Translations under genes and position numbers: made by a program
Assembly: GCA_947507875.1 (NCBI GenBank)
Contig: CANNQP010000001.1
Span: 248,001 to 312,000, forward strand
Direction of reading: 5' to 3'
Length of the DNA stretch: 64,000 bases
DNA from: Verrucomicrobiaceae bacterium
GTDB taxonomy: Bacteria; Verrucomicrobiota; Verrucomicrobiia; Verrucomicrobiales; Verrucomicrobiaceae
In this document: piece after piece, positions 10,060 through 62,169 of the stretch
Position numbering within the stretch: the stretch's first letter is position 1
How the letters are laid out: each line of letters begins with the position of its first letter
The notes under the pieces: model-generated
What the model was told of the DNA's origin: nothing
Seen by the model: only the letters and a program-made list of their open reading frames with translations
Database searches by the model: none

Positions 10060-10063
<4 letters not shown>
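9254..10063 (+). CDS. Hypothetical protein with possible class III nucleotidyl cyclase-like fold
   Basis: ILFVDVLGV start, [30 protein letters not shown] spacing resembles cyclase catalytic domains; fold call is inference. Confidence 0.4.
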
Positions 10064-13695
<3,632 letters not shown>

Positions 13696-49494: not shown

Positions 49495-51699
49495 TCAAAA
49501 AAGTGGAATCGACTCTTTCTCCCACTCAACCCGCACCGTCGAGTACTTGTAACTCGGCTGACGGCTCAGCGGATCAAACGAAGCATGCGTGAGTTGGTTC
49601 ACCTGCGCATCATGCATCGGCAAATACACCTCGCCGGGCTTCACACAGCCCGTCAATCGGGTCAATGCCGTCAATTCCGCCCGCTTCGAGATCACACGCA
49701 CCCGCTGCCCATCCCGAACACCCAGTTTCGCCGCATCCTCGGGATTCAGATCCAGCATCAACTCCTCCGGCACCATCTTCGCCAGCACCGCCGACTTCCC
49801 CGTCCGCGTCTCCGTGTGCCACTGCGCACTCGTGCCGCGGCCCGTCATCAAAATGAGCGGAAACTCCGCACAACGCTGCTCCGGCGGCACGACAGGCTCA
49901 TCAAAGCAAAACTTCGCCCGCTGATCCTCGGTGAAGAACTTTCCATCCTCAAACAGCCGCCGTTCATTCGTCATTCGCCATTCGTCATTCGTCATTTTAG
50001 CTGGCCACTGCACGCCGCCGTGCTGGCGGATCATGTCGTAGCCTTCGATACCCGTGATCTCACACGGCTGCCCTTCGGAGCAGCGTTGCAGCACGCGAAA
50101 CACCGCCTCCGGCGTCTGCCACTCGCGGAACTTCTCCCCGCATCCCCAATAGTGAGCGATGAGCCGGAAGATGTGGAAATCGGCCAGCGATTGGCCGGGG
50201 GCGCGACGCACCTTCGGGCTGTAGCCGATGCGACGCTCGGAATTGATGAAGCAGCCTTCTTTTTCGCCCCAACCGGCCGCGGGTAGCACGAGGTGGGCTC
50301 GTTTTGCCGTCTCGGTGCTGCAGTACATGTCCTGCACGACGAGGAAATCGAGCTTGTCGAGGATGCGGTTCATCTCGTTCTGGTCGATCCACGAATGACT
50401 CGGATTCGTCGCGACAAACCAAATGGCCTTCACCGTGCCTGCATCCGCCGCCGCGATGATTTGATCATAGGCCAGACTCGGACGGTCCGGGATACGGTCG
50501 ACGGGAATGCCCATCGCCAGCGAGATCTTCTCTCGGTGTTTCGGATTCTTGAAATCATGCCCACCAAACAAGTTCGTCGTGTTTGAGAACAAGCGTGATC
50601 CCATCGCATTGCACTGGCCGGTGATGGAATTCGCTCCCGTGCCCGGTTTGCCGATGTTTCCTGTCATCAACGCCAGATTGATGATCGCCTGTGCCGTGCG
50701 CGTGGCTTGGTGGCCTTGATTCACGCCCATCGTCCACCAGAAACTGACCGCTTTGCCTTCCCGGATGATTTTAGCAAAACGAAGCAGTCTTTCGATGCTG
50801 ATGCCCGATTCTGCGGAGACACGTTCTGGCGTAAAAGCCGCCACAAAAGCCGCGAAAGCATCAAATCCGTTCGTGTGGGCCTCGACGAAGCTTTGATCCA
50901 CACCTCCATCACGAATCAGCAGATGCGCGAGACCATAGAGCAGCGTCAAATCGCTCTTCGGCTTGATGGCGTAGTGCTGCGAGGCCGCCATTGCCGTTTC
51001 CGTCGTGCGGGGATCGACGACGATGATCTCGGGCTGGCGTTTGTTCTTCAAAACACGCTGCCACATGATCGGATGCGCGATGCAGGGGTTCGCGCCGATG
51101 AAGACAAGCACATCGCTCTCCTCAAAGTCGGCGTAAGTGAAGGGTGGCGCATCGAAGCCGAAGCTTTCTTTGTAGGCGGTGACGGCGGTGGCCATGCACT
51201 GGCGCGTGTTGCCATCGCCATGAATCATGCCCATGCCGAACTTCGCTAAAGCGCCGAGAAAGGCCATCTCCTCGAACATGATCTGCCCCGTGCTGAGAAA
51301 CGCGGCGGCCTCGGGACCGTGCTGGTCGAGGATGCGCTTCATCTGATCGCAGAAGTAGCGCAGCGCGGTGTCCCAATCGACTTCTTTGCCATGCAGCAGC
51401 GGCATGCGAGCGCGATCCGGTGCATCGAGCACACTCAGCGCCTCCCAGCCCTTTGGACAGGCGGTGCCGAGGTTCACGGGGTAATCGGGATCAGGCGTGA
51501 GATTGATCGCCGCGCCGTCCTTGAGGTGAATGTTCAATCCGCAGCCGGTGGAGCAGAAGCCGCACACGGCTTTGGTCGTCGCATCTGGCAGCAATCGCGA
51601 TGGAACCTGCCCGAGCCCGAACTTCGCCGGTTCACGCACCAGATCGGCCGTCAGCGGGCCGGTCCATTCGCGGAAGGTCATGGCAGGTGCGGTGAGCAT
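49495..51699 (-). CDS. nasA: Molybdopterin-dependent nitrate reductase catalytic subunit, NasA-like
   Basis: [76 protein letters not shown]. Confidence 0.9.
49965..49997. repeat. Heptad tandem repeat (CATTCGT)n within nasA coding sequence
   Basis: cattcgt cattcgc cattcgt cattcgt catttt. Confidence 0.9.
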
Positions 51700-51700
51700 C

Positions 51701-53287
51701 TCAGTTTCCTGGCATTTTCGGCCCGTGGCAGGCGGTGAAGAAGTAGTGTCGCTCGATCAACTGGCTGCACAGCGTGATGGCAACGGACAAGGTGAAGACA
51801 GCGGCGACTTGAAACTGCGTGACAATGACCGTGGGCAAAACGATGCCGACGATGGCGAGCATGATTTTCCGAGCGCGAAGCAGATGCGGCAGTTTTTCCG
51901 TCAAAATGCGGGCAGACATGTGCCACGGGCTCGATGCATCGCGACGTGCCAGCTTGATCTCCCGCATCTCAAACAGCGAAACAGACCAGCGCAGCACGAG
52001 AGCTGTCGGAATGGCGATTTGCGCGAGCGGATGGCCCATCCAGGCCCAGATCACGCCGGGAATGGCCGTGCCGAGCAAAAGCATCGTGCCGAAGAATTTG
52101 CTGCCGGTGAGCTTCATCGACCAAAACGGACGCCGCGTGTCCACATAGACCATGACGGAGCTGTAAACGGCCAAAACGCCCGCGAGCGCCGCAAGGCTCA
52201 GCGTGAGCTTCGATGGAAAAAGCAGCGAAACAGCTCCCAGCTTCGCAAAGAGCCCGAAAGCGATGATTTCGCGCGAAAGCCAGGATTTCCGCCAGCCCAA
52301 AAACGCCCGCCAGGCCTTCAAAGGCTGCCCGAGATGCAAAACGCTCAGCGCGATGCCGACGACACCCATGATGAAACCCACCCACGAGCAAACCCAAGCC
52401 TCGCGTTGCCCGGTCAATCCAGCCAAAGAGGTCAATGCAGTCACCAAAAACGTCCCCGCGCTCATCTGCGTAAGCACGAGCATCCAGGTCAGCGGTGGAT
52501 GAGCCTGATCGAGGCGTAGCTGCCCTTCATCCGCCGGTTTGGCCTCCGGCAGCGGCTTGGCGGAGACGTAGGTCGTGGTGGGCTGCGTGTAGCTTGAATC
52601 AAAAGTGCCGGGCAGCAGGCGCTCCGATTTGGCGGCACCGACTTTCACGACCTGAATCTTGATCGCCTCGTTCGGGCAGGCTTGCACGCAGGCGGGTGCT
52701 TCGCCTTCGGCGAGGCGGCCATGGCACATGTCGCACTTCCGCACGATCCCGCGCTTGAGGTTGAACTTCGGCACGTCATACGGGCATTTCAGAATGCAGT
52801 AGCTGCAGCCAATGCATTGATCATCCAGATGCCGCACGATGCCTGTGAAGGGATCTTTGTCATACGCGAGCACCGGGCAGCCATTCGAGCATGCGGGGTC
52901 TTCGCAATGATGACAGGCCGTGGTGACGGTCTGCACATATGGCTTCTTTTCCAAACCCACCAACAAGCCCACATCCCGCCACGATTCATCGTCATCGAGC
53001 CCGTTGAGCGAGTGACAGGCCGCGACGCAGGCTTTGCAGCCGGTACAGGCATCCAGATTGACGTGGAAGGCATATTGCTCGCCCGGATTCGGCTTCGAAA
53101 GCGGGATCAGGTGGGTGAAGCGGTCTTTGACCGTTCGTGAATCAAACTCTTCGGAGAAGAGTGCGACGGGTGTGCGGAGGGTTTGCTGGTCACGGAGGGC
53201 TTCACTTATGATTTTTGATTTATGATTTACGATTTCAGAAGGAGCGCCTCCGCCCGCCTCTTGATCATTTGCCAAATCATAAATCAT
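51701..53287 (-). CDS. Fused 4Fe-4S ferredoxin (DmsB-like) and DmsC-like membrane anchor protein
   Basis: [76 protein letters not shown], then multiple TM helices. Confidence 0.9.
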
Positions 53288-53305
53288 AAATCGTAAATCA
53301 TAAAT
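53204..53305. repeat. Inverted AAATCRT heptad arrays flanking a short GC-rich core (MITE-like), at nirA stop / start of next ORF
   Basis: acttatgatttttgatttatgatttacgattt ... aaatcataaatcataaatcgtaaatcataaat. Confidence 0.9.
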
Positions 53306-58937: not shown

Positions 58938-59810
58938 TCAGACTCTAACAAACCTCTTCGAAATGTTCATCTCGGTGGCCATGTCGGGGGAAGGCTTGAA
59001 CTCTGGCTCAAGGCTGGGACGGATGTGGGATTTGTCGTTGAGGAAGGTGATGAGGTGCTCGCGCAGCTCGTAGTAACGCGGGTCTTCCATGATCTCCTTG
59101 CGACTGCGTGGACGCTCGAAAGGGATCTTTAAGATATCGCCAACCTCAGCTTCGGGGCCGTCGGTCATCATGATGACGCGGTCGGAAAGGAAGATGGCTT
59201 CATCGACATCGTGCGTGACCATGAGCGTGGTGATGCGATTGCGACGCCAGAGGTCGAGCAGCACTTCTTGAAGCTCGTAGCGCGTGAGGGAGTCGAGCAT
59301 GCCAAAGGGCTCATCGAGCAGCAGCATTTTCGGCTGCAAGGCAAAGGCGCGTGCGATGCCGACGCGCTGGCGCATGCCCTGGGAGAGCTCGCCGGGATAT
59401 TTGTGCATGGCATCGGCGAGTCCAACGATGCTGAGGTAGTACTCGACCATCTGGCGGCGCTCGGCCTTGCTGGCGGTGAAATAGACCTGGTTCACGCCGA
59501 GCATGACGTTTTCAAACGCGCTCATCCAAGGCAGCAGGCAAGGCGACTGAAAAACGATGCCGCGATCCGGCCCCGGGCCGACGGCTTCTTTGCCGGCAAG
59601 GATCATGTTGCCCTTCGAGAGATCGCTCAAACCGGCGACCATCATGAGGACGGTGCTTTTGCCGCAACCGCTGTGGCCGATCAGCGTGGTGAACTCGCCC
59701 TCCTTGAGCTTGAGATTGAAGTCTTTGACAATGGTGGCCGGACCTTTGGGCGTGTCGTAGATCTTCCAAAGGCGATCCAGTTCGAGCATGGGGAGCTTGT
59801 GCGTGCTCAT
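58938..59810 (-). CDS. nrtD: Nitrate/nitrite ABC transporter ATP-binding protein
   Basis: [51 protein letters not shown]. Confidence 0.88.
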
Positions 59811-60727
59811 GCAGCCACCTCCACTTCTTCGCGTTTGTCGGCGGTGCGGCGTTTCGGACCGGTGCGGTTAAGGAATTGCAGGCTGTTCACGGTGGTGAGG
59901 TCTTCAGGCAGGATGTCCGGCAGCGTGAGCTTGAGGTTGGTCTTCGCTTTCGAGCGGCCTTTGGCATCGAGCAGCGTGGTGATGAGCTGCGTGCGCAGTT
60001 TTTTGAATTGGGGATCGTGATTGATCGTTCGGCGGTCACGCGGCCGGTCGAGGTCGATGATCATCGGCTCGCCGAGCGTAGCGGGCGCGGTGGGCAGCAG
60101 CGGGATGACCTTGTCGGCGACGAGGATGGCTTCATCGGGGTCGTTGGTGATCCAGATGACGGTGGTTTTGTTTTTCATCCAGATCTCGCTGATCTCATCC
60201 TGAAGCGTGGCACGTGTCAAAGCGTCCAAAGCGCTCAAAGGCTCGTCCATGAGCAGCACCTTCGGATTCATCGCCAGCGTGCGAGCGACGGACACCCGCT
60301 GACGCATGCCGCCGGAGAGCTCTTTGGGCAGTTTGTGTGCCGCAGGCGTCAGTTTGACCATCGCGATGTATTTGGAGATGTACGCCTTGCGCTGTTCTGG
60401 CGTCCAATCCTTGAAAACCTCATCCACCGCGAGCGCGATGTTTTCTTCGACAGTGAGCCATGGAAGCAGCGAGTAGTTCTGGAAGACCAATCCGCGATCC
60501 GGGCCTGGTTCGGTGATCTTTTTGCCTTCGATGAGCGCTTCGCCCGTGTCCGGCTTCACGAGACCGGAGATCAAATTGATCAGCGTGCTCTTCCCAGAGC
60601 CCGAGTAGCCGACGATGACGACGAACTCGCCTTCTTCGACACTGAGGTTGATGTCCTTGAGGACTTCGGTTCGCGAACCGTTGTGACCGTAGCCTTTGGA
60701 GGCACCTTTGATTTCGATAAGCGGCAT
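59807..60727 (-). CDS. nrtC: Nitrate/nitrite ABC transporter ATP-binding protein
   Basis: [52 protein letters not shown]. Confidence 0.85.
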
Positions 60728-60733
60728 ACGAAA

Positions 60734-61167
60734 CTTATGATTTACGATTTATGACTTATGATTTGGAATGGCGTTCCTATGACGAACTAAGAGCTCAAAG
60801 AACGGACCATGGACTTTGCGGTGCGAGTCCTCACGATGGTGGATGCGCTGCCGAAGACGACGGCTGGCAAAACGGTCGGAAATCAGATCGCGAGAAGCGG
60901 AACCTCGGTGGCGGCGAATTATCGGGCTGCTTTGAGGGCCAAGTCGGATGCTGATTTCATCAACAAGATCACGATTGTACTCGAAGAGGCCGACGAAAGC
61001 GGGTTTTGGATCGAACTGGCCAAAAAAGCCAAGTTGCTGCCCAGCAAGCGTCTGAAGGCCCTTCTTCAAGAAGCCGAGGAACTCACGAAAATCTTCAACG
61101 CCACGCGAGCAACGACCAAGCGCCGCACGGCCCGAAATCATAAGTCGTAAGTCGTAAATCATAAATG
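60734..61167. mobile_element. Candidate four-helix-bundle element: AAATCRT heptad arrays bracketing an S23/IVP gene
   Basis: Left array cttatgatttacgatttatgacttatgattt; right array aaatcataagtcgtaagtcgtaaatcataaat. Confidence 0.75.
60809..61150 (+). CDS. Four-helix-bundle protein (23S rRNA intervening-sequence protein family)
   Basis: MDFAVRVLTMVDALPKTTAGKTVGNQIARSGTSVAANYRAALRAKSDADFINKITIVLEEADESGFWIELA; antisense to surrounding nrt genes. Confidence 0.9.
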   Translation: MDFAVRVLTMVDALPKTTAGKTVGNQIARSGTSVAANYRAALRAKSDADFINKITIVLEEADESGFWIELAKKAKLLPSKRLKALLQEAEELTKIFNATRATTKRRTARNHKS

Positions 61168-61171
61168 ATGC

Positions 61172-62059
61172 TCAGGCAGTTTTGAACCGGCTTTCGACGA
61201 CACTCATGAGTCGGTCGAGGAGGTAGCCGATGAGGCCAATGGTGAGGATGCAGAGGATGATGTGGGCGTAGCTGTTGGCGTTGTATTGCTGCCAGAGGAA
61301 GCCGCCGACACCTGGGCGACCGGTGAGCATCTCCACGGCGACGATGACGAGCCAGGCGATGCCGAGGCTCAGACGGAAGCCGGTGAACATGTAAGGCAGC
61401 GTGGCGGGCACGAGGACCTTCCAGAGCGTCTTCCATTTCGAGAGTTTGAGCACCTTGGCGACATTCAAGTAGTCCACCGGCACGGCGCGGACACCGACGG
61501 CGGTGTTCATCACGGTGGGCCACATGGCGCAGATGGCGATGGTGAAGAGCGCGGCGGCATCGGAGGCACCGAAGGTCGTGCGACCATCGCCATCCATGAT
61601 TTTGACGCCGCTGAAAAGAATCATGCCCAGTGGCAGCCAGGCGAGCGGTGAAACGGGCCGAAGCACCTGAATGATGGGATCAAAGGCTTTCGTGAACGGT
61701 TTGGAGAGGCCGAGGAAGAAGCCAATCGGCGTGCCGATGATGAGCGCGATGAAATAACCCTGCGCCACGAGCACGAGTGACATCCAGGTGAAGCGGAGAA
61801 TGCCTTGGTCCAGCTCACCACGCTTGGCGAAGGGCTCGACGATGTAGGGCTTGCTGGCTGTCCAGGTCTCGACGGGCGTGGGCAGATCGGCGGAGAGGCC
61901 TTCACGCTTGGTGATTTTGACCTTGTCGCCGAAATCATCGACCTTTTCCGTCACCACAGACTTTCCGGCGATGGCATACCAGAAGACGCAGGTGATCAGT
62001 ATGGCAACCAACGGCAGGAAGATGGAGTCGAGTTTGTATTTGTGGATGAGGGGATGCAT
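61172..62059 (-). CDS. nrtB: Nitrate ABC transporter permease
   Basis: LGLSKPFTKAFDPIIQVLRPVSPLAWLPLGMILFSG; GFRLSLGIAWLVIVAVEMLTG. Confidence 0.92.
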   Translation of the reverse strand: MHPLIHKYKLDSIFLPLVAILITCVFWYAIAGKSVVTEKVDDFGDKVKITKREGLSADLPTPVETWTASKPYIVEPFAKRGELDQGILRFTWMSLVLVAQGYFIALIIGTPIGFFLGLSKPFTKAFDPIIQVLRPVSPLAWLPLGMILFSGVKIMDGDGRTTFGASDAAALFTIAICAMWPTVMNTAVGVRAVPVDYLNVAKVLKLSKWKTLWKVLVPATLPYMFTGFRLSLGIAWLVIVAVEMLTGRPGVGGFLWQQYNANSYAHIILCILTIGLIGYLLDRLMSVVESRFKTA

Positions 62060-62062
62060 CGG

Positions 62063-62169
62063 AATTTATGATTTATGATTTTTGACTTATGATTTCCGAT
62101 CTGACCTCCCTCGCCGCTCCTTGTGGAGCGGTTTGGGAAATCAAAAATCGTAAATCATAAATCATAAAT
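62063..62169. repeat. Inverted AAATCRT heptad arrays around a GC-rich hairpin core, between nrtA and nrtB
   Basis: aatttatgatttatgatttttgacttatgattt ... ccgctcc-ttgt-ggagcgg ... aaatcaaaaatcgtaaatcataaatcataaat. Confidence 0.92.

Follow-up and report, generated by a model that had tools for sequence, protein, structure and literature searches.

What is a small S23/IVP gene doing between two arrays of heptad repeats in the middle of a nitrate transporter operon? The window analysed here is a 64,000-nucleotide stretch of a Verrucomicrobiaceae genome, and a preliminary description of it had proposed that the gene and its arrays form a small mobile unit between nrtC and nrtB. Read directly from the sequence, the unit spans 434 bp (60733-61166 of the window) and consists of a left arm, an S23/IVP ORF on the plus strand and a right arm, placed among its neighbours as follows:

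59807-60727, minus strand: nrtC-like ATP-binding protein gene, a flank outside the unit (ORF list and orthologues in relatives)
60733-60764, minus strand: left arm, four AAATCRT-type heptads plus 4 nt in minus-strand reading, sequence ACTTATGATTTACGATTTATGACTTATGATTT
60809-61150, plus strand: S23/IVP four-helix-bundle ORF, 113 aa from the ATG at 60809 (TIGR02436 and PF05635)
61135-61166, plus strand: right arm, AAATCAT AAGTCGT AAGTCGT AAATCAT AAAT, sequence AAATCATAAGTCGTAAGTCGTAAATCATAAAT
61172-62059, minus strand: nrtB-like permease gene, a flank outside the unit (ORF list and orthologues in relatives)

The anatomy agrees with what had been described. Both arms are 32 bp long and mutually inverted, and a repeat search pairs them over 30 nt with 93% complementarity. 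The ORF runs antisense to both minus-strand nrt neighbours, and its last codons (AAT CAT AAG TCG TAA, NHKS-stop) are made of right-array sequence. Five nucleotides separate the nrtC start codon from the left arm, and another five lie between the right arm and the nrtB stop codon. The S23 ORF is the only gene of the unit: no catalytic gene was found in it, and no Y1 transposase inside or beside it.

The family assignment made in the preliminary description is borne out by profile scores above both cut-offs, 84.2 bits against TIGR02436 (cut-off 24) and 58.8 bits against PF05635 (cut-off 33.8). The ORF also matches the solved protein 2RLD by sequence (3e-16), an entry with five chains. By profile, then, the nrt-unit protein is a member of the S23/IVP family and is predicted to form a four-helix-bundle pentamer; a pentameric four-helix bundle is what PMC4990558 reports for the S23 protein of Xanthomonas. 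The native start, ATG 60779, hits a stop at codon 4 in the window copy (ATG ACG AAC TAA, 60779-60790, stop at 60788-60790), and relatives read ATG ACG AAC CAA, with CAA where the window copy has TAA. Judged from this alignment, the window copy has lost its native start, and the frame open from ATG 60809 is about 10 N-terminal residues shorter. Purifying selection on the S23 protein is strong (dN/dS 0.03-0.13), including between copies at different sites. A second S23-like match in this genome (G000:C35, L010, 500-1500) is a partial one, to a 226-aa ORF; that ORF is flanked by another kind of repeat, of the AGGTCGCATAGG...CCTATT type.

To assess whether arms are a general property of S23 genes, we reverse-complemented the right flank of each locus and compared it with the left flank of that locus, taking a score of at least 13 as inverted arms. 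The survey covered 127 distinct S23 loci (genus genomes plus 20 named loci), 126 of them usable and most from Prosthecobacter. With this single scoring scheme, and with many loci coming from draft MAGs, own inverted arms were found at 91% of the 126 loci, compared to 6.8% when flanks were swapped between loci and 1.5% in control windows. The inverted-array bracketing of the S23 gene in the nrt operon is thus confirmed and is not a product of chance. Direct (non-inverted) flank matches reaching 13 were seen in 15% of S23 loci, and about 2 of 48 ordinary ORFs of the window carried such arms once two matches from the nrt unit's own arrays had been removed. Arms were unrecognisable at 9% of the main set and at roughly one in four Bacteroidota loci.

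The flanks of S23 genes are periodic, mainly at 7 or 14 nt and in some cases at 8 or 10 nt, a periodicity never obtained in shuffles. Arms built of 7- or 8-nt repeats have a median length of 32 bp, those built of 10-nt repeats one of 43 bp, with several of these at 33 bp, and AAATCRT arms almost always comprise four heptads plus 4 nt. The repeat itself varies by lineage: AAATCRT, AGTTTCA, GTTCTCG, AGTGCTC, GGAATGC, GATGAAG, GGCGGAG, GCTGGAT and others. The preliminary description had tied S23 genes to AAATCRT, and one half of this stands: S23 genes elsewhere do have inverted arrays of their own, but these are usually built from other repeats, so that the link is between an S23 gene and an inverted short-tandem array and not with AAATCRT. 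Arm similarity tracks protein identity: the arms are similar in 87% of pairs whose proteins are 90-100% identical and in practically none below 50%, a correlation that stems partly from shared descent of orthologous insertions. As for their surroundings, in 57 of the 93 measurable cases the stop codon of a neighbouring gene falls between -15 and +20 nt from the outer edge of the arm (a pattern, and no proof of target choice), and units are least common in divergent intergenic regions.

The same architecture, with changing repeats, surrounds most sampled S23 genes in seven bacterial phyla. Arms were present at 22 of 29 loci in Bacteroidota (4% with swapped flanks), at 18 of 23 distinct loci in an Anaerolineae MAG, Marivirga and a Patescibacteria MAG taken together (the raw total of 26 counted three loci twice), and at all 15 plasmid loci (12% swapped). 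The plasmids came from Nostoc, Planktothrix, Anabaena, Gloeocapsa, Pseudanabaena, Dolichospermum, Chlorohelix, Treponema, Monoglobus and Bernardetia, and the arms on Nostoc-type plasmids include near-perfect heptads, for instance TAATTCG x4 and AATTCAA x4. Two of the plasmid units lie inside defence clusters: the one on Anabaena cylindrica plasmid pANACY.01 (L273) between cas2 and cas1, and the one on a Monoglobus plasmid (L278) between genes for restriction endonuclease subunit S and hsdR, which are unannotated there.

We sought empty nrtC-nrtB junctions in relatives, as the preliminary description had advised, and nine were found, with 21-25 bp between the genes (G001, G005, G007, G008, G009, G026, G034, G046 and G047). 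A homologous unit occupies the junction in eight others (G011, G012, G017, G023, G025, G027, G028 and G036) and adjoins nrtB in G035. The G014 junction is filled by another kind of unit, in which inverted CGCAAAGG arrays enclose a GxxExxY gene. On the nrtB tree, the occupied G012 and the empty G008 are sisters with moderate support (83/99), and the occupancy pattern requires at least six changes, five of them forced by well-supported branches; exchange of alleles between species could explain part of these changes. Three more distant Verrucomicrobiota (L082, L083 and L085) carry the same S23 subfamily at nrtC-nrtB, and the nrt unit is found in many species, spanning more than one order. Much of this distribution may reflect old inheritance, or transfer of the operon, with losses. 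At the junctions, the divergence between occupied and empty alleles is too great for a target-site duplication to be read.

AAATCRT-type S23 units are also found at unrelated sites (G036:C36, G047:C1, G015:C45 and loci of other Verrucomicrobiota). G036, for example, has one unit at nrt and another elsewhere; in G047 the nrt junction is empty and a unit is present at another site. The copies at unrelated sites are 65-84% similar in DNA, and in most pairs the similarity stops about 10 bp or less from the outer arm ends. Other units have empty sites too: the unit at L107 in G023, G026, G030, G036, G040 and G047, and the gyrB-gyrA unit in G008, G014, G016, G032 and G039. The nrt unit, as MITEs and transposons do, has terminal inverted repeats at its boundaries and is present or absent at orthologous sites. 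Because junctions are empty in relatives, homology ends at the arms and other units leave clean empty sites, the feature is well supported as a repeat-bounded mobile unit with an S23 gene, much as the preliminary description had suspected. One candidate for a new site, L147, was rejected and left out of the count of copies elsewhere, its right flank being nrtB. The gyrB-gyrA junction seems to have been occupied repeatedly, with matches to the end of gyrB adjoining S23 matches in about 10 genus genomes (L129, L165, L168, L169 and L170 among them).

The preliminary description had also tied the arrays to the gene, and here it holds in part: AAATCRT pairs occur without any gene as well, as expected of miniature derivatives. 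The window contains two such pairs, with z values for a single-strand fold:

53204-53305, no strand assigned: gene-less inverted AAATCRT pair, arms at 53204-53235 and 53274-53305, fold z -4.4
62064-62169, no strand assigned: gene-less inverted AAATCRT pair at the nrtB-nrtA junction, arms at 62064-62095 and 62138-62169, fold z -7.7

Further gene-less AAATCRT pairs exist outside the window in this genome, and also in relatives, with arms alike and loops unrelated. The nrtB-nrtA junction bears an AAATCRT hairpin in this genome and in G011, a GATTCCT-type heptad hairpin instead in G014 (flanks 96-97% identical), and an ordinary hairpin in G012 and G008. At some other sites occupied by an S23 unit in one species, related species have gene-less hairpins built from different repeats. 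These differing occupants indicate that the same junctions house different element types across species.

Taken as a whole, these observations are probably best explained by a small mobile element whose arms are bound by the S23 protein and whose ends are joined with the help of an enzyme acting in trans. The minimal element would consist of two inverted short-tandem arms, to which the gene-bearing form would add one S23/IVP gene. The arms are most likely both the ends of the element and its recognition sites. We infer that the S23 protein is most likely a factor of the element itself, one that would bind the arms as folded hairpin DNA or RNA (a hairpin intermediate) and draw the ends together, while cutting and joining would fall to an enzyme encoded outside the unit. 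Copies would settle next to stop codons and in tight operon junctions, and gene-less hairpins with the same arms would be derivatives mobilised in trans. The arm repeat would drift along with the protein lineage, giving each lineage its own arm sequence, and the intervening sequences (IVS) of 23S rRNA would probably be the same kind of element, resident in rRNA helices. On the form that is recognised, arm pairing within the AAATCRT family (14 elements) showed no covariation above shuffles, and arm mismatches showed no wobble bias (143 of the G-U type, 169 of the A-C type), so the hairpin need not be the selected form, and the working form may be DNA or RNA.

Arms of this kind are not exclusive to S23 genes. 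The unrelated GxxExxY family (TIGR04256) has inverted short-tandem arms at 23 of 31 loci, compared to 4.6% with swapped flanks. These loci are L046 (G014:C32) and L191-L220, many of them with other repeats, of the ACAGGATT or CACGGAA types, and several two-domain GxxExxY forms of about 280 aa lack arms. Within the window, a DUF559 (endonuclease-like) domain at 11334-11781 lies between inverted ACCCTCACCCCGGCCCTCTCCC-type arms, in frame within a type I restriction HsdR ORF (10060-13695), and plasmid HsdR homologues lack about 410 bp at this position. We do not claim DUF559 as a third general arm-bracketed family, as arms were found at 3 of the 10 strong DUF559 loci of the genus.

One could argue from this variety that the arrays are MITE-like ends moved by a hairpin-recognising host enzyme (e.g. 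Y1/HUH, RAYT-type), with S23, GxxExxY and other small genes as exchangeable cargo that has no role in movement. Gene-less pairs are indeed common, GxxExxY and the DUF559 gene of the window are bracketed alike, and Y1 transposases are present in 47 of 48 genus genomes, five of them in this genome. We nevertheless consider this explanation unlikely, since neither the variation of the arm repeat with S23 lineage nor the strong purifying selection between S23 copies would be expected of useless cargo, and the correlation between S23 and Y1 numbers is weak (rho 0.29), both rising with genome size. Y1 transposase was rejected as the S23 partner on the same grounds, being near-universal in the genus and only weakly correlated, with genome size as a confounder. 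Known elements of this general kind resemble the units in part. REP/BIME elements with their RAYT (Y1) are alike in forming short intergenic inverted-repeat hairpins near gene ends, in gene-less and gene-associated forms, but here the arms are tandem repeats, the inner gene is S23 and not Y1, and the genome's Y1 genes lie elsewhere. MITEs share the gene-less pairs of terminal inverted repeats and the variable position between relatives; they differ in that the gene-bearing form here has a small non-catalytic protein. No transposase ORF was found in the gene-bearing units examined, which is still compatible with a transposase acting in trans.

Less probable still is a host function, in which the hairpins would be 3'-end terminators, processing sites or mRNA stabilisers, S23 an RNA-binding regulator, and movement rare and incidental. 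It would account for the neighbouring stop codons close to the arm edge, for the hairpins of different types that substitute for each other at the same junction and for the conservation of the S23 protein. A sense-strand RNA function is, on the other hand, at odds with mismatches free of wobble bias and pairing free of covariation above shuffles, and with the antisense orientation of the unit in the nrt operon. Nor is any shared regulon evident among the neighbours of the units, which include nrt, gyrB-gyrA and many other genes.

The preliminary description had further hinted at an accessory role in retroelements. Avd, the accessory protein of DGRs, is a four-helix-bundle pentamer, and S23 could act in the same way, with a reverse transcriptase in trans copying the hairpin RNA into new sites. 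To this resemblance can be added the rRNA-located relatives described in PMC4990558. The idea fared poorly and we hold it to be very improbable: unlike a DGR, this genome has no reverse transcriptase (RVT_1, PF00078), and neither do 19 other genus genomes of the 48 searched, including ones with 9 and 10 S23 matches, and the numbers of reverse transcriptases and S23 genes are uncorrelated across the genus (rho 0.04). Gaps in MAGs and lost reverse transcriptases are a possible reason for such absences; dependence on a reverse transcriptase is disfavoured by the absence here together with the lack of correlation in the 48 genomes. Finally, an origin of the arrays by chance or by replication slippage (one explanation in the literature for abundant heptad repeats, cited in PMC4679880), with no connection to the gene, can practically be dismissed, as slippage yields direct arrays of variable length and not two matching inverted arms, AAATCRT arms keep their four heptads plus 4 nt, and own and swapped flanks contrast so sharply.

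Returning to the small mobile element with an arm-binding S23 protein, its nearest counterparts in anatomy are in rRNA genes. As described in PMC4990558, rRNA IVSs with an S23p ORF (Leptospira, Coxiella) are likewise about 430 nt long, have terminal inverted repeats and vary in presence. The Coxiella IVS has an S23 ORF, 28-bp terminal inverted repeats, which equal four heptads in length, and tandem heptamers (GACAGAT/GACAGAA) before the ORF, treated in that account as a strain-variable feature. The same account calls rRNA IVSs selfish or possibly mobile, with an unclear origin, and places them in 23S rRNA helices, from which RNase III excises them, whereas the unit here sits between the protein genes nrtC and nrtB. 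The nrt unit thus shares with rRNA IVSs an S23 ORF between terminal inverted repeats and falls outside their class by location; an IVS-like working is plausible, and by anatomy the rRNA IVSs look like rRNA-resident examples. The link to IVSs rests on the literature, as no 23S sequence was present in any of the 312 loci fetched.

Heptanucleotide repeats have been reported in several bacteria: GGGAATC in Xanthomonas, with 70-75 inverted heptad pairs per genome, and GGGGAYT in Nostoc, both generally unassociated with mobile elements (PMC4692102), and TAACTGA in Beggiatoaceae (PMC4679880). These and the cyanobacterial STRR have the repeat length in common with the arms here, the STRR being compared by repeat length and tandem arrangement only. 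Neither paper connects its repeats with S23 genes or mobile elements, and in the open-access literature we found no paper connecting S23 or four-helix-bundle genes (or GxxExxY) with tandem or inverted arrays. Cyanobacterial plasmid S23 genes are, as seen above, bracketed by heptads such as TAATTCG. A broader proposal can be made tentatively, and we would sooner question it than assert it: S23 genes may be the core of pan-bacterial, transposase-less mobile elements with inverted arrays of 7- to 10-nt repeats as ends, in which the repeat of each lineage would be an "address" read by its own S23 protein, rRNA IVSs a special case, and many unexplained heptanucleotide repeats gene-less derivatives.

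The S23/IVP family is without a known function, although rRNA IVSs with S23 genes have been under study for over 25 years (PMC4990558), and polymerase slippage has been held responsible for the many heptanucleotide repeats of bacterial genomes. The bracketing offers a common, testable frame for both. It predicts that an S23 protein binds its own arms but not arms from a different lineage, and that the elements move; it suggests Xanthomonas, Nostoc, Leptospira and Coxiella as places to look; and it would account for the presence in 23S rRNA helices of an S23 ORF flanked by terminal inverted repeats.

Some heptad sequence of the window lies within reading frames. In the minus-strand ORF 51701-53287, the N terminus (peptide MIYDL...NHKSK) contains an in-frame reading of the gene-less hairpin at 53204-53305, and this hairpin directly adjoins, at 53305, the stop codon of the following gene. 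At 49964-49996 the heptad TCATTCG forms a solo array (x4.7) that lies in frame within the minus-strand ORF 49495-51699, which is molybdopterin oxidoreductase-like (nitrate reductase-like).
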